This document shows positions 17,394 to 30,780 of a DNA stretch of 54,489 nt, in pieces. Both the position numbers and the translations under genes were made by a program. A model generated the notes under the pieces. That model was not told the origin of the DNA, did not search any database, and worked only from the letters and a program-made list of their open reading frames with translations. Numbering within the stretch: the stretch's first letter is position 1; each line of letters opens with the position of its first letter. The DNA comes from an uncultured Verrucomicrobiota bacterium (lineage in GTDB: Bacteria > Verrucomicrobiota > Verrucomicrobiia > Limisphaerales > UBA9464): assembly GCA_903922605.1 (NCBI GenBank), contig CAIXUG010000011.1, forward strand, positions 1 through 54,489, written 5' to 3'.

Positions 17394-17669
17394 GAATCGG
17401 AAATCAACGTGGATGAAACGCGGCGCGCACCAAGTGTCCGTTCGGCGTCAACGTCGAAGGCCGGGAGCGCTGCGCCAAAGGGACGCTTGTGCCTGAGCCA
17501 TACTGCGGTTGCGTGCGCCGCCATTGCCATGGGGTTCAACCCTACCGGGTACTTTGATCAATGAACTCCCGTCCCGGACAGGATGTTGCGAACCTCGCCC
17601 CATCCATCTTGTCGCAGTCACCGTTTGCTTCCGACCCCGCCGTCGGCTACTTCTCCCCGACTATCTTTT

Positions 17670-19271
17670 ATGGCTGCCACCGCACCCGACACACGCATTC
17701 CCGTCACCGTCCTCACCGGCTTCCTGGGAGCGGGCAAGACGACCCTGCTCAACCGCATTCTCACCGAGAACCACGGCAAACGCATCGCCGTGATCGAGAA
17801 CGAATTCGGCGAGATCGGCATCGACAACGCGCTGGTCATCGGTGCCGACGAGGAGATCTTCGAGATGAACAACGGCTGCATCTGCTGCACCGTGCGCGGA
17901 GATCTCATCCGCATCCTCGGGCAGCTGCTCAAGCGCCGCGACCGGTTTGACTACATCCTCGTTGAAACCACCGGCCTGGCCGATCCCGGCCCGGTGGCGC
18001 AGACTTTTTTCAGCGACGAGGAAGTGAAGGAAAGCTACCGCCTCGACGGCATCGTCACGCTCGTGGACGCGAAGCACATCGGCCTCCACCTCGGCGACGC
18101 GCCTGAGGCCAAGGGCCAGATCGCCTTCGCCGATCGCATCCTGTTGAACAAGACCGATCTCGTGACGACCGCCGAGCTGGACCGCCTCGAGGAAACCATC
18201 CACAGCATCAATGCGGTAGCGAAGATCCACCGTACCACGCAGGCCAATCTCGCCGTGGACCAGGTGATCAACCTGCACGCCTTCGATCTCGACCATAAGC
18301 TGTCACTCGATGGTGATTTTCTCGAGAAGGAGCTGCCGTTCGAATGGAGCGGGGCCTACCATCTGGATGCGGGCGAACACACCCTCGTGCTGGATGCCGG
18401 CCCCGATCCCGTGATGGGCGTGGTGCTGCTCCAGCTCGATGCGCATGAGGCGGGCCATTGCCCCGAGCACGGTGAGAAGCACGAGTGCGGCCACGGCCAT
18501 GAGCACAAGCACGGCCCCGATTGCGGACATGATCACGAGCATGACCACAAGGACGAGCATGGGCACGCGGAGAAGGAAGGCCACAAGCACGGGCCTGAAA
18601 GTGAGCATGAGCATGAGCATGAGCACGCGCATGAAGATCATGGGCATGACCACGATCACGACTGCGAGCATGATCACGGCGGCCTGCACGGTGCGCTGCA
18701 CGCGGCCGAAGACGTGGCCACGACAGTTTTCAGCTATCCGGCCAGTTCCGTTAAGAACGGCGGCGAATTGAAGCCCAGCAAGAAGCTCTTCAAGCTCGTG
18801 CTGGGCGAGGATGGCGGCCGCTATCGGGTGACCATCCCGGAGCATGGCAATTACGCGCTGTTCACCCAGCATGGCCTCGATGAGTTCTCCGGCCGTCTGG
18901 AGCGCGACGGCAAGGCGATTGAGCCGGCGCACGAGCATGAGCACGGCGGACACGTCCATGAGCACACGCACGACGAATCCGTCAGCAGTGTCGGCATCGA
19001 GGAAAAGCGCGAGCTGGATCCCAAGAAGCTTAACAACTGGCTCAGCGAACTGCTCCAGAGCAAGGGCGCGGACATCTTCCGCATGAAGGGCATCCTCAAC
19101 CTCAAGGGCTCGCCCAACCGCTTCGTGTTCCAGGGCGTCCACATGATGTTTGAGGGCAAGGCCGACCGGCCCTGGAAGGACGCAGACGAGCGCAAGAGCC
19201 AGCTCGTGTTCATTGGGCGCAAACTGGACCGTGAGGCCTTGAACGCGGGCTTCCGACGCTGCCTCGCCTGA
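17670..19271 (+). CDS. CobW/COG0523 GTPase, probable zinc metallochaperone with His-rich inserts
   Basis: A 533-aa G3E GTPase. Walker A GFLGAGKT is at 17-24, the metal-binding CxCC (GCICC) at residues 70-73, and the guanine-specificity NKTD near 160. A beta-rich middle region (about 220-258 and 346-410) is split by a His/Asp/Glu-rich stretch at about 260-345 with dozens of His residues. A second His-rich patch lies at about 417-434, and the CobW C-terminal domain occupies 445-533. The family delivers Zn, Co or Ni to target enzymes; the His runs suggest metal storage or sensing. I chose the ATG at 17670 because homology starts there; the frame opens earlier. A WD40 gene follows after 7 bp. Confidence 0.88.
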
Positions 19272-19278
19272 TCCGGCG

Positions 19279-20304
19279 ATGAGTCTGATTCCTCTCTGTC
19301 CCACCGACTGGCTGACCAATCTGGGCGATCCCGTGGCACAGGTCTCCTGGTCGCCCGATGGCACCGTCATCCTCGCCGGCGGTGTGGATGGCCGGGTTGC
19401 CCTCTTCAACGCTGCCGATGGCAGCCTTCATCGCGGTTTTGTCGCGCACGAGGGTGGCTTGTTCCGCGCTGCCTTTTCACCGACCGAAAATATTTTTGCG
19501 ACGTCGGGGCAGGATGGCACGGCCAAGCTCTGGAATCCGCTGACTGGCGAATTGCTGCACACGCTCAGCTTCGGTTCGGCGTGGGTGGAGCAGCTGGCCT
19601 GGGCACCCGCGGGAGGATGGCTCACCGTCGCCGCCGGGCGTCGCCTGCGGCTCTGGCAGCCCGCAACCGGGGTGGTTCACGAATCCCCCGACCACCGCAG
19701 CACCGTCGCGGCGCTGGCTTGGCGGTCCGATGGCCAGCGCGTCGCCTCCGCCTGCTACGCCGGCGCGGAAGTCTGGGCGGTCGCGACCGGGCAGCACGTC
19801 GAGACGCTGCCCTGGAAGACCTCGCTCATCTCCCTCGCGTGGTCACCCGACGGCCGCTGGCTGGTCGGTGGCACGCAGGAACAGAGCGTCCAAATCTGGG
19901 AGCTGCCCTTCAAGCCGGGCAACGAGCTCGCCATGTCCGGCTACGCCGCGAAGGTCCGCGAGCTGGCCTGGCACTATTCCGGCCGCTATCTTGCCACAGG
20001 CGGCGGGGAACAGGTCATGGTCTGGGACTGCGCGGGCAAGGGCCCCGCCGGCTCCACGCCGCGAATCCTTGAAGGGCACCTCGGCCGCGTGAACGCGCTG
20101 GACTACCAGCGCGCCGGCCACCTGCTCGCCAGCGGCGCGCAGGATGCTTCCGTGCTCCTCTGGAACGCCGGCAAATCCAGCAACGCCCTGCGCCAGTTCA
20201 AGCTGCCCGCCGCCGTGACTGAGGTCCGCTGGTCGCCCGACGGCAAGCGTGTCGCCATTGGTTGCCGCGATGGCTCGGTGGCAGTGGGACCGGCGCCGGT
20301 CTGA
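19279..20304 (+). CDS. WD40-repeat beta-propeller protein
   Basis: A 341-aa cytoplasmic protein consisting almost wholly of WD40 units (SPDGT...AGGVDGRVALFN; SPTENIFATSGQDGTAKLWN; RAGHLLASGAQDASVLLWN; SPDGKRVAIGCRDGSVAVG), about seven, enough for one complete propeller. There is no signal peptide. Such propellers act as protein-docking platforms. It starts seven bases after the CobW-type gene, so the two are almost certainly co-transcribed, suggesting a partner role in metal delivery; that is inference from position. Confidence 0.88.
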   Translation: MSLIPLCPTDWLTNLGDPVAQVSWSPDGTVILAGGVDGRVALFNAADGSLHRGFVAHEGGLFRAAFSPTENIFATSGQDGTAKLWNPLTGELLHTLSFGSAWVEQLAWAPAGGWLTVAAGRRLRLWQPATGVVHESPDHRSTVAALAWRSDGQRVASACYAGAEVWAVATGQHVETLPWKTSLISLAWSPDGRWLVGGTQEQSVQIWELPFKPGNELAMSGYAAKVRELAWHYSGRYLATGGGEQVMVWDCAGKGPAGSTPRILEGHLGRVNALDYQRAGHLLASGAQDASVLLWNAGKSSNALRQFKLPAAVTEVRWSPDGKRVAIGCRDGSVAVGPAPV

Positions 20305-20548: not shown

Positions 20549-21589
20549 TCACCCCTTCTTCGCCGCTTTGACCTCCTCCACCCAGGGCTGGTGGTCGAGA
20601 TACCACCGAACCGTCTCGCGGATGCCCTTCTCGAAGGTGTAGGCGGGCTTCCAGCCGAGGTCGCGCTCGATCTTGGCGGCGTCGATCGCGTAGCGTCGAT
20701 CATGGCCGGCGCGGTCCTTTACGAAGGTGATCAGTTGGCGCGAGTTGCCGCCAAACTGCGGGGCGAGTTCATCTACGAGATCGCAGATCAACTCCACGAT
20801 GCAGATGTTGGCCCATTCGTTGTGGCCGCCGATGTTGTAGGTATCGCCGTTTTGCCCGCGAGTGAGCACCTGCCAAAGCGCCTCGCAATGGTCCGTGACA
20901 AACAGCCAGTCGCGGACGTTCAGGCCGTCGCCATACACGGGCACAGCCCGGCGTGCGATCAGGCTCTGGATGACCACCGGGATGAGCTTCTCCGGAAACT
21001 GGAAGGGCCCGTAGTTGTTCGAGCAGTTGGTCATGACCACCGGCAGCCCGTAGGTGTGGTGGTAAGCACGCACCAGCAGATCACTCGAGGCTTTGCTGGC
21101 GGAATAGGGGGAATTAGGCGCATATGGCGTGGTCTCGGTGAAGTAACCCGTCGCGCCCAGCGAGCCAAACACCTCGTCGGTCGAGACGTGATGAAAGCGC
21201 CGTTCGGCACTCGAACCTCGCAATTCGGAACTCGGACTGAGCCAGGCGTCGCGGACGGCTTCCAGCAGGTTGAACGTGCCGACGATGTTCGTGGAGATGA
21301 AGTCGCCCGGCCCGCTGATGGAGCGGTCCACATGCGATTCAGCGGCGAGATGCAGCACGTGCGTGATCGTGTGCTGCCGTACCACGCGGACGACTTCGGC
21401 CTTGTCGCGGATGTCCACGCGTTCGAACACGTAGTTCGCGTGCGCCTCCGCGCCGCGCAGATTGGCCAGATGCCCCGCGTAGGTGAGGGCGTCCAGGTTC
21501 ACGAGCTTGGCAATGTCGGACCGGCCCAGCAGGTGATGGATCAGGTTCGAGCCGATGAAGCCGGCACCGCCGGTGACGAGGAGGTTCAT
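20549..21589 (-). CDS. rmlB: dTDP-glucose 4,6-dehydratase
   Basis: A 346-aa short-chain dehydrogenase converting dTDP-glucose to dTDP-4-keto-6-deoxyglucose. It shows TGGAGFIGS near residue 6, the catalytic STDEVFGSL segment, YSASK, and [18 protein letters not shown], a signature of RmlB. Between LEAVRDAWL and FHHVSTDEV it has extra residues encoded by a heptanucleotide repeat (21203-21237). Last gene of the rmlA / RmlD-like / rmlB operon, three bases after the preceding stop. Confidence 0.95.
21203..21237. repeat. Heptanucleotide repeat inside rmlB
   Basis: About five degenerate heptamers lie in phase: in one register ACTCGAA, CCTCGCA, ATTCGGA and ACTCGGA follow one another. They encode the extra [14 protein letters not shown]-type residues just before the conserved catalytic segment of rmlB. 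The motif matches the repeat at 47973-48000 in its reverse complement. Confidence 0.6.
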
Positions 21590-21592
21590 GGG

Positions 21593-22552
21593 TTATTTCT
21601 CCGGCTGCCAGTTGCGGAGTGAGGTTTCTAAGGCTTCCTCGACCGGGCGGATCTTCACGCCGGTGGCCAGCAGCTTGGTGGTGTCCATGATGCAGTTCGA
21701 ACGCGGGGTCTTGGCGGCGATGCGGTAGAACTCCGCGTCGTCGGCCCAGAACTCGAACGTCCGCGCCGGCTTCAGCACGCGCTGGATGGCGGTCACTACC
21801 TCGCGGGTGGTGACGTAGCCGGGGTTCACCACATTGTAGATGCCAGCCGGAGCGCGGCGGTCCCACAGGTCAAGGCAGGCCCGGGCGAAGTCGGCGCGGT
21901 GCGAGATCGAGTTCACGTTGTCGTACACGCGGGCGTAGCGCTGAACCTTGCTGAGGTAGTTGCGCGCGTTGTCGATCTCGTCGAAGGGAATGCGCAGCCG
22001 CCAGATATAGCCTTCATGGTTGCGCAAGGCCTCCTCACCGAGCGCCTTCGAGCCGCTGTAAAAGCTGCACGGCTCGCGGCGGAAGGAGAAGTTCGGCTCG
22101 TCCGCCTCGGTGAAGCCATGGATCGCGGCGCGGTTGCCCTCCAGCAGGGCCTTGGCTGCGGGACTGGTCATGTCCTTCTCCACGCGCTGGATGCCGTTCT
22201 CGGTGATCTTGGCTCCGGCGTAGATGCAGCCGGAGGAGATGTGCCCCCATGACACACCAGCCGCCAGACACGACTGCGCGACGGTTACGGGCAGGATCGC
22301 ATTGCCCAGCAGGGTGTCGGCCTTGGCGGATTCGCAGGCATCGACATTCGGCTTGCCGGTGAAGCCGGCGCAGTTGACCACGAAGTCCCACCGGGAGGCG
22401 CGCAGCAGCTCAAGCAGTCGGTCGAAGCGCGTGTAATCCACCTCGGAGCGGCGCACCGTGCGGTATTCCCAGCCGCGCGCGGCCAGTTCGCGGGCGAAGG
22501 CCTGACCGATATAGCCGGTGCCGCCGAGCAGCAGGACGCGGGGCGCGCTCAC
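21593..22552 (-). CDS. RmlD/NRS-ER-like dTDP-sugar reductase (possibly bifunctional)
   Basis: A 319-aa extended SDR with GGTGYIG at 10-16 and a YxxxK pair at Tyr165/Lys169 (SFYSGSKALGEE). NCAGFTGKPNVDACES, then NARNYLSKVQRYARV and GIYNVVNPGYVTTREVV, resemble the plant NRS/ER and RHM C-terminal 3,5-epimerase/4-reductase family more than classical RmlD. In that family one protein performs both last steps of dTDP- or UDP-rhamnose synthesis, which would explain why no rmlC is present. The ATG overlaps the rmlA stop by four bases. The fold is certain; the bifunctional activity is inference. Confidence 0.78.
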   Translation of the reverse strand: MSAPRVLLLGGTGYIGQAFARELAARGWEYRTVRRSEVDYTRFDRLLELLRASRWDFVVNCAGFTGKPNVDACESAKADTLLGNAILPVTVAQSCLAAGVSWGHISSGCIYAGAKITENGIQRVEKDMTSPAAKALLEGNRAAIHGFTEADEPNFSFRREPCSFYSGSKALGEEALRNHEGYIWRLRIPFDEIDNARNYLSKVQRYARVYDNVNSISHRADFARACLDLWDRRAPAGIYNVVNPGYVTTREVVTAIQRVLKPARTFEFWADDAEFYRIAAKTPRSNCIMDTTKLLATGVKIRPVEEALETSLRNWQPEK

Positions 22553-23433
22553 GCCACACCTCCCAGACGGCGGGCTTCGCTGACGACGGCGGCCAGGTAG
22601 TCGCGGTACTCGCAGTTCGGCAGCGAGGCGGTAAGGCTGTGGAGCTGGTCGAGCGACAGGAAGCCACGCCGGAAGGCGGCCTCCTCGGGACAGCCGACCT
22701 TGATGCCCTGGCGCTTCTCGATGGTCTGCACGTAGGCACTGGCGTCGTGCAGGCTGCTGCTGGTGCCGGCGTCGAGCCAGGCGAAGCCGCGTCCGAGCCG
22801 TTGCACGTGCAGTGTACCGCGGCGTAGGTATTCGAGATTCACATCGGTGATCTCCAGCTCGCCGCGTGCCGATGGCTTCAGGGCCTTGGCGATGGCCACG
22901 ACGTCATTGTCGTAGAGATAGAGGCCGGGCACGGCGTAATTGCTCTTGGGCTGCTTCGGCTTTTCCTCGATGGAGATGGCCTTACCTGCCGCGTCGAATT
23001 CGACCACGCCATAGCGCTCCGGGTCGTGCACGTGGTAGCCGAAGATCGCGGCCCCGGTGGTGAACTCGCTGAACGCCCGGAAGAACGAGTCGCCGCCGTA
23101 GAAGATGTTGTCGCCGAGGATCAGCGTCACGGAATCCGCGCCGATGAAGGTGTCCGCGATCCGAAAGGCCTGTGCGATGCCCTGGGGCTGTGCCTGTTCG
23201 CGATATTCGATGCTGATGCCCCAGCGCGAACCGTCACCGAAGAGCTGGCGGAAGCGCGGCAGGTCGTGCGGCGTCGAGATCAGGCAGAACTCGCGCACGC
23301 CACCCTCGATCAGTGTCGAGAGCGGGTAGTACACCATCGGTTTGTCGAAAACCGGCTGGAGCTGCTTGCTCGCGACCTGCGTCAGCGGATACAGGCGCGA
23401 ACCGGCACCGCCGGCGAGTATGATGCCCTTCAT
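22549..23433 (-). CDS. rmlA: Glucose-1-phosphate thymidylyltransferase
   Basis: A 294-aa nucleotidyltransferase making dTDP-glucose from glucose-1-phosphate and dTTP. It begins MKGIILAGGAGSRLYPLTQV, with the GGAGSRLYP nucleotide loop, KQLQPVFDKPMVYYPLS, LILGDNIFYG and EEKPKQPKSNYAVPGLYLYD, all RmlA hallmarks. Length is normal. The ATG at 23433 matches the family start; the frame extends further upstream without homology. It heads the dTDP-sugar operon. The 255 bp upstream (23434-23688) contain no other gene and presumably hold the promoter, though I cannot identify one. Confidence 0.95.
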   Translation of the reverse strand: MKGIILAGGAGSRLYPLTQVASKQLQPVFDKPMVYYPLSTLIEGGVREFCLISTPHDLPRFRQLFGDGSRWGISIEYREQAQPQGIAQAFRIADTFIGADSVTLILGDNIFYGGDSFFRAFSEFTTGAAIFGYHVHDPERYGVVEFDAAGKAISIEEKPKQPKSNYAVPGLYLYDNDVVAIAKALKPSARGELEITDVNLEYLRRGTLHVQRLGRGFAWLDAGTSSSLHDASAYVQTIEKRQGIKVGCPEEAAFRRGFLSLDQLHSLTASLPNCEYRDYLAAVVSEARRLGGVA

Positions 23434-23688
23434 GTTCGGACGGAGAGTCGGGAACGAACCGGGGCTGCGCAACCGGGAAGCGCAGTCAGGCAATGTCCGA
23501 TGCGTTCCGAGGAAAAACCGGAAAACCGGCGGGGAGCGGCCTGCCCTGACGAAATCGCCTGTACCCTTGAGAGGTGACATGAGAAGTGTCGGATTTTCCG
23601 TTTTCGCCCGAGGCACATTGGACTCACCGCTCAGAGAGAGGCCACTGTCCTCCAACCGTCTGATTTCTTGAGCAACCTGTTAAGCAGC

Positions 23689-30424: not shown

Positions 30425-30780
30425 GGGGGCGTACTGGTTTCGACTTGGAAAACCCGCCTGTGACGGCATGCCGAGGATGGTTCGTTGGCCTCGTAAATCG
30501 TCGGACCAAAAAAGTAATTGCTAACGAAGAGTTGGCTCTCGCGGCCTAATTAGCTGCGACGTTCGTTCCCGAACACCTGCTACGGGAGTACGAACGCCTT
30601 TAGCAGGCATGGTTGACGGCGGAGACTGCGCGTCGGCGACCGAGAAACTTCATGCGGACTAGGCGGAGCCGTTTCCTGTCGGTCGATTACGGTTTCGTAG
30701 AAAATCCTGACCGGCTAAGCATGTAGTCGTTACTGGTTGGCTAGCCAAGGACGCGGGTTCAACTCCCGCCGCCTCCACCA
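30425..30780 (+). ncRNA. ssrA: Transfer-messenger RNA (tmRNA)
   Basis: A one-piece tmRNA of about 356 nt. The 5' end GGGGGCGTACTGGTTTCGAC and the 3' end with GCGGGTTCAACTCCCGC and an encoded CCA are diagnostic; GGGGGCG pairs with CGCCTCC (one G-U). The resume region reads GCT AAC GAA GAG TTG GCT CTC GCG GCC TAA, giving tag ANEELALAA, which ends in the LAA degron. It rescues stalled ribosomes with SmpB. A strong terminator follows at 30802. Confidence 0.95.

Follow-up and report, generated by a model that had tools for sequence, protein, structure and literature searches.

A three-gene operon of Verrucomicrobiota pairing rmlA and rmlB with an NRS/ER-like gene, a probable route to dTDP-L-rhamnose

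How might a bacterium complete the synthesis of deoxythymidine diphosphate (dTDP)-rhamnose when its rmlA and rmlB genes flank one gene and no rmlC lies beside them? In published accounts, bacteria make dTDP-rhamnose with four enzymes, RmlC and RmlD being distinct proteins (PMC12285223, PMC6556577). The question is raised by a 54,489-nucleotide stretch of an uncultured Verrucomicrobiota bacterium, the whole of which we call the window (contig CAIXUG010000011.1 of assembly GCA_903922605.1, here C11). A sequence-only reading, made without database searches, had noted in it a tightly packed rmlA, RmlD-like gene and rmlB lacking a 3,5-epimerase gene, and the open reading frames confirm this arrangement at 23433-20549 on the minus strand:

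22549..23433, minus strand: rmlA, glucose-1-phosphate thymidylyltransferase (dTDP-glucose synthesis), 294 aa from ATG
21593..22552, minus strand: ER, the NRS/ER-like middle gene, 319 aa, GTG start
20549..21589, minus strand: rmlB, dTDP-glucose 4,6-dehydratase, 346 aa

A 4-nt overlap (GTGA) joins rmlA and ER, the gap between ER and rmlB is 3 nt, and the run holds no further sugar-modifying gene; the mechanical open reading frame of rmlA starts further upstream, at 23655. By the NCBIfam equivalog cut-offs of the dTDP pathway, the outer genes are clear: RmlA scores 424.1 bits against TIGR01207 (cut-off 360.65) and also matches PF00483, while RmlB scores 471.4 bits against TIGR01181 (cut-off 365.1) and is the only one of the listed genome matches above that cut-off. 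A genome search with the RmlC domain PF00908 gave no match on C11, in keeping with the absence of an epimerase gene from the operon. We consider ER to be most likely a bifunctional dTDP-4-keto-6-deoxyglucose 3,5-epimerase/4-reductase, and place the probability that the operon encodes a three-gene route to dTDP-L-rhamnose at roughly three in four. In this route RmlA would produce dTDP-glucose and RmlB dTDP-4-keto-6-deoxy-D-glucose, upon which ER would carry out the steps otherwise shared between RmlC and RmlD, with Cys109 and Lys202 acting as the acid/base pair that inverts C3 and C5, and Tyr165/Lys169 together with NADPH reducing the C4 ketone. We infer alike the two activities of ER, its use of NADPH, its preference for dTDP and the L-rhamnose product. 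The sequence-only reading had offered such a route as a possibility, and the conserved gene order, a shared operon slot, a partial exclusion of rmlC and rmlD and the residues described below support it.

A search of PDB sequences with ER recovered the Arabidopsis NRS/ER (4qqr) first (E 1.3e-29) and the mimivirus UDP-rhamnose synthase L780 (7jid) second (E 4.3e-14), with an RmlD (4wpg) only third (E 2.9e-6). A profile built from an alignment of 21 ER homologues (A1) gave 182.4 bits to 4qqr, 109.8 to 7jid and 62.1 to the best RmlD. The predicted structure of ER (mean pLDDT 88.5) found its best fold match in 7jid (Z 33.5, 2.0 Å, 279 residues), ahead of 4qqr (Z 31.4, 2.0 Å, 269 residues, with 30% identity across the structural alignment) and the best RmlD structure (Z 28.6, 2.3 Å, 269 residues); since NRS/ER, L780, RmlD and ER are all of one fold, these scores give a ranking, not proof. 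The RmlD model TIGR01214 gave ER 84.7 bits, far under its cut-off of 224.05, and among the 21 A1 members the ER of the window had the best E-value with this model (5.7e-24). ER carries GGTGYIG plus Y165/K169 and matches only the domains PF04321 (RmlD_sub_bind) and PF01370; the NCBIfam Fcl model gave it 27.1 against a cut-off of 500. There was no match to PF00908 within ER, which rules it out as an RmlC/RmlD fusion. The two motifs on which its likeness to the plant enzymes had been proposed, NCAGFTGKPNVD and NARNYLSKVQRY, are both present in the translation, and that likeness is backed by the matches to solved structures and by the catalytic residues.

ER shares with plant NRS/ER (UER), the C-terminal domain of RHM and 4qqr the short-chain dehydrogenase/reductase (SDR) fold, the epimerase Cys and Lys, the YxxxK pair and the GxPNVDxCE-type and NxRNxxxKxxRY-type motifs. 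Unlike plant NRS/ER and RHM, it is a single-domain protein located in a dTDP-type operon, and it carries an insertion behind its Cys motif. L780 has the same Cys and Lys as ER, but belongs to a eukaryotic virus, prefers a UDP sugar and has a separate viral dehydratase, R141, as its partner (PMC9614988). The positions in question are as follows, those of L780 having been matched allowing three extra residues in the chain numbering:

22226..22228, minus strand: Cys109 codon, counterpart of C115 (4qqr) and C108 (L780)
21947..21949, minus strand: Lys202 codon, counterpart of K183 (4qqr) and K175 (L780)
22046..22060, minus strand: Tyr165 to Lys169 codons, the YxxxK pair of the SDR fold
22124..22207, minus strand: insertion of residues 116-143, just past the Cys109 motif, a clade marker

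The C115/K183 pair of Arabidopsis NRS/ER has likewise been proposed as catalytic. For L780, a review reports Cys108 and Lys175 as catalytic residues confirmed by mutagenesis (PMC9614988). We compared 189 ER homologues (109 from genomes and 80 from viral contigs, the copy of the window excluded). The Cys109 and Lys202 positions were no part of the search patterns used to scan genomes and viral contigs, but each of these two scans contributed its 80 top matches, which biases the sample towards close relatives. Cys is present at the Cys109 column in 189/189 of them and Lys at the Lys202 column in 188/189, while the YxxxK pair is found in all 189 and is invariant in A1. By contrast, all 21 RmlDs compared (20 of this phylum and one from E. 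coli) show Tyr or Phe at the Cys column and Thr or Ala at the Lys column. GDP-L-fucose synthase (Fcl/WcaG) is likewise a single SDR with 3,5-epimerase/4-reductase chemistry, and the E. coli Fcl has a Cys at the Cys109 column, but it acts on a GDP sugar and has no Lys at the Lys202 column. The insertion is filled in 80/80 of the closest genome loci, in 3/80 viral-contig loci and in 0/29 other genome loci, all 29 of which fill at most 7 of its 28 positions; the Arabidopsis and mimivirus enzymes each fill 5. Its place suggests a contact with the substrate.

The gene neighbourhoods were examined at 80 genome loci, the best 80 of 489 relatives, with mean flanks of 6.4 and 6.8 kb. Both rmlA and rmlB lie within 1.3 kb of ER at 65 of these, with rmlA only at 11, rmlB only at 2 and neither at 2; several of the 15 incomplete loci sit at a contig end, the sequence breaking off on the side of the absent gene. 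The available flanks of ER gave no match to RmlC or RmlD at any of the 80 loci. The 29 other ER loci, which come from a sample of the phylum, have rmlB within about 1.5 kb in 24 cases, rmlA only in 1 and neither in 4. The gene order varies by group, being rmlA-ER-rmlB, ER-rmlB-rmlA or rmlB-ER-rmlA, from which it follows that the association of the three genes outlived rearrangement. We then compared the 20 highest-scoring RmlC loci in a sample of 144 genomes of the order. The arrangement rmlA-rmlC-rmlD-rmlB is seen in 15 of them; of the remaining five, two have a solitary RmlC, and the others read rmlA-rmlC-rmlD (rmlB missing from the flank), rmlA-rmlC and rmlA-rmlB-rmlC-rmlD. Among the 15 loci of the first kind, 13 have an RmlA whose best-matching reference is that of the window (77-82% identity). 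Taken with the ER loci, these four-gene loci point to one slot with two fillings: within one order, what lies between rmlA and rmlB genes of close similarity is either ER or rmlC-rmlD, and the replacement of rmlC-rmlD by ER is systematic across related loci. A genome of family f5 without ER (G099) has rmlC-rmlD-rmlB-rmlA, and 19 sampled f5 genomes have ER. The high-scoring-RmlC relatives of the order sample (L248-L267) mostly have the four-gene arrangement, with RmlA and RmlB proteins close to those of the window, and offer a ready system in which to study the exchange of two genes for one.

Compared with the canonical rmlABCD operon, the operon of the window thus has rmlA, rmlB and the presumed end product in common, with one gene in place of rmlC and rmlD. 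A canonical operon was itself rejected for the window, there being no PF00908 match on C11, no RmlD of the genome over the cut-off and neither rmlC nor rmlD in the available flanks of the 80 related loci. A single protein for the epimerase and reductase steps is also known from the RmlC/RmlD fusion of Prymnesium parvum, shown to form TDP- and UDP-rhamnose, and from bacterial RmlCD chimeras (PMC6556577); these fusions join an RmlC domain to RmlD, whereas ER lacks an RmlC domain.

The distribution of these genes across genomes was assessed in the phylum sample of 288 genomes, with thresholds of E 1e-20 for ER, 1e-15 for RmlC (PF00908) and 1e-62 for RmlD (TIGR01214, at most 8 candidates scored per genome). 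ER was detected in 35 genomes, RmlC in 188 and RmlD in 187. RmlC occurs in 7/35 genomes with ER as against 181/253 without it (Fisher p 6e-9), and RmlD in 1/35 as against 186/253 (Fisher p 1e-16), both p values ignoring kinship; at these thresholds 28/35 ER genomes gave no RmlC match and 34/35 no RmlD match. Among the single-contig ER genomes, 9/13 have neither. In the order sample, where ER was called at E 1e-60 and found in 66 of the 144 genomes, the exclusion is weaker than in the phylum sample, and adjacent rmlC-rmlD pairs are present in 2/66 ER genomes versus 20/78 of the others (p 1e-4). The exclusion of ER versus rmlC and rmlD across genomes is hence partial.

The sequence-only reading had asked for a search of the genome for rmlC. 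Such a gene does exist, at C61:72836-73339, as the sole PF00908 match in the genome, and it scores 183.5 against TIGR01221 (cut-off 155.75); the notion of a genome free of rmlC is thereby ruled out. It is not on C11, and it follows genes for a glucose-1-phosphate cytidylyltransferase (TIGR02623), a CDP-glucose 4,6-dehydratase (TIGR02622) and a sugar C-methyltransferase; given these neighbours, we interpret it as belonging to CDP-sugar synthesis. This cluster (L002 13602-17358, on G000:C61) suggests a C-methylated branched 6-deoxy sugar as its product. The best RmlD match of the genome is on another contig:

L004 1480-2355 (G000:C26): RmlD-like SDR, below the RmlD cut-off, without the Cys and Lys of ER

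No RmlD over the cut-off of 224.05 was found in the genome, this C26 protein reaching 167.7 bits (168.1 in another search). We rejected it as the RmlD of the pathway on account of its contig, its score and the missing Cys and Lys, and it may still act as a reductase. Its neighbour is presumably a tRNA-synthetase-type protein, by the look of its translation.

These genes bear on the first alternative, in which ER would be a 4-reductase only, that is a divergent RmlD, with the RmlC of the CDP-sugar cluster epimerizing in trans. It draws on the presence of one RmlC over the equivalog cut-off in the genome itself, on the match of ER to PF04321 and on the lone RmlC of another ER genome (G325, E 1e-72), which scores like those of four-gene operons. 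Set against this, no RmlC match (E 1e-15) was found in 28/35 ER genomes of the phylum sample and 36/66 of the order sample, and ER keeps the Cys and Lys that are absent from 21/21 RmlDs. Furthermore, each of the 7 RmlC genes in phylum-sample ER genomes has a cytidylyltransferase or C-methyltransferase gene nearby, and rmlA and rmlB are near none of them. Of 27 further RmlC genes, all from order-sample ER genomes that have no rmlC-rmlD pair, 19 lie by a gene of either kind scoring at least 200 bits, 3 by weak matches alone and 5, that of G325 among them, by neither kind; in the stretches examined, none of the 27 has rmlA or rmlB beside it at a threshold of 150 bits. RmlC thus lies next to rmlA or rmlB in 0/34 of the ER genomes that have an RmlC and lack that pair. 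It appears to be mostly a CDP-sugar enzyme in ER genomes, with help in trans possible where it is present, including in the genome of the window, and we regard the alternative as improbable. In one ER genome, G305, a second and more distant ER copy (G305:C54:30459-31397) lies about 4.5 kb from RmlC with a cytidylyltransferase in between, a hint of a subfamily that acts on a different nucleotide sugar; second distant copies were also seen in G347, G378, G382, G418 and G420, and these copies are 43-60% identical to the ER of the window.

Several observations weigh against a bifunctional ER in a three-gene route. One ER homologue, at L024, has Arg at the Lys202 column, the sole exception, and ER has no rmlA or rmlB nearby at L021, L024, L025 and L047 (for L021 and L024 in wider flanks too). 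The Fisher tests are uncorrected for shared ancestry, and in the order sample RmlC is present in 30/66 ER genomes versus 51/78 of the others (p 0.019) and RmlD in 6/66 (one below the cut-off) versus 24/78 (p 0.002). Two ER genomes, G294 and G376, have a full rmlA-rmlC-rmlD-rmlB operon besides a distant ER elsewhere, which overturns the generalization that RmlC is never beside rmlA or rmlB in an ER genome; their ERs (48 and 39% identity) have no rmlA or rmlB beside them in the stretch examined, and this branch probably does something else. Epimerization by the RmlC of the genome in trans is possible. A functionally uncharacterized fusion of RmlC with NRS/ER is reported from Rhizaria (PMC6556577), implying that a relative of NRS/ER may sometimes work with RmlC. 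Finally, whether ER is placed with NRS/ER or with RmlD varies with the choice of outgroup. Three trees, which included two eukaryote-side sequences only, set these and ER apart from RmlD (SH-aLRT 98, 92 and 100) on long branches; constraining ER to group with RmlD was rejected by the approximately unbiased (AU) test with the C26 protein as outgroup (p 0.006) and was not rejected with the E. coli Fcl (p 0.39). An rmlC elsewhere in the genome together with clustering with monofunctional RmlD was among the outcomes that the sequence-only reading had named as speaking against it: the rmlC exists, though in a CDP-glucose pathway cluster, and ER neither scores as an RmlD nor has its residues, whereas its rooted position relative to RmlD shifts with the outgroup.

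A second alternative, about as improbable as the first, retains a bifunctional ER and changes the product to another 6-deoxyhexose, such as dTDP-6-deoxy-L-talose, by reduction from the opposite face, or a 3-epimerized D-sugar. The face of reduction cannot be fixed from sequence, and Megavirus Mg535, which a review compares with these enzymes, epimerizes C3 only (PMC9614988). Products other than rhamnose are disfavoured by the fact that both closest solved relatives are named as rhamnose-forming, by the position of ER in the rmlC-rmlD slot between rmlA and rmlB, and by the want of any additional sugar-modifying gene in the run. A UDP-linked cellular substrate, with rmlA and rmlB serving another pathway, is very improbable: the plant and viral NRS/ER do favour UDP sugars (PMC6556577, PMC9614988), but ER is tightly packed with dTDP-type genes, and L780 accepts dTDP sugars too (PMC9614988).

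Relatives of ER also occur outside cellular genomes. IMG/VR contigs yielded at least 586, and at the best 80 loci, which were kept, rmlA and rmlB are both in the locus in 46 and adjacent in 25. Some of these viral contigs (L130-L209, e.g. L147 and L191) have a sugar C-methyltransferase in between. Of ten neighbouring proteins on two of these contigs, 8 matched a PHROG family. Among annotated phages there were just 6 matches, all weak (at most 24% identity where more than 80% of the query was covered), and phages were hence discarded as a well-documented home of ER; plasmids gave 6 weak matches as well. Elsewhere in the window we noted a CobW-type GTPase (17583-19271, plus strand) with a long histidine-rich stretch between its two CobW domains, adjoined by a WD40 protein (19279-20304), and a tmRNA gene (30425-30780) with the tag ANEELALAA.

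Verrucomicrobial homologues of NRS/ER have been known since 2011, when Yin et al. traced the NRS/ER domain to only four homologues in bacteria, each of them verrucomicrobial, and postulated a prokaryotic donor in which the rmlC and rmlD functions were maybe already joined (PMC3220709). They noted that dehydratase, epimerase and reductase genes cluster in general; the available passages of that paper gave no description of an rmlA-ER-rmlB operon. Wagstaff et al. (2019) treat RmlB, RmlC and RmlD as separate in bacteria and mention RmlCD chimeras from bacteria, and the word Verrucomicrobia is absent from their main text (PMC6556577). A verrucomicrobial genome paper describes the dTDP-rhamnose pathway of its strain as incomplete for want of the RmlA and RmlD enzymes (PMC9865893). 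Literature searches, with most subscription journals outside their coverage, gave no report of a bacterial NRS/ER-type rhamnose enzyme or of this operon.

One gene seems to replace rmlC and rmlD in many members of one phylum, and a bacterial enzyme of the dTDP side, as opposed to the UDP preference of plant NRS/ER (PMC6556577), could help the enzymatic synthesis of dTDP-rhamnose. It is conceivable, though on balance unlikely, that rmlA-ER-rmlB of Verrucomicrobiota is the surviving form of the donor operon postulated by Yin et al. for plant RHM and NRS/ER; a joined rmlC/rmlD gene would then have stood beside a 4,6-dehydratase gene, and only their fusion would be needed to give RHM. ER is a tangible candidate for the epimerase/reductase which that proposal places in bacteria, so that the origin of the plant enzyme can be put to the test.

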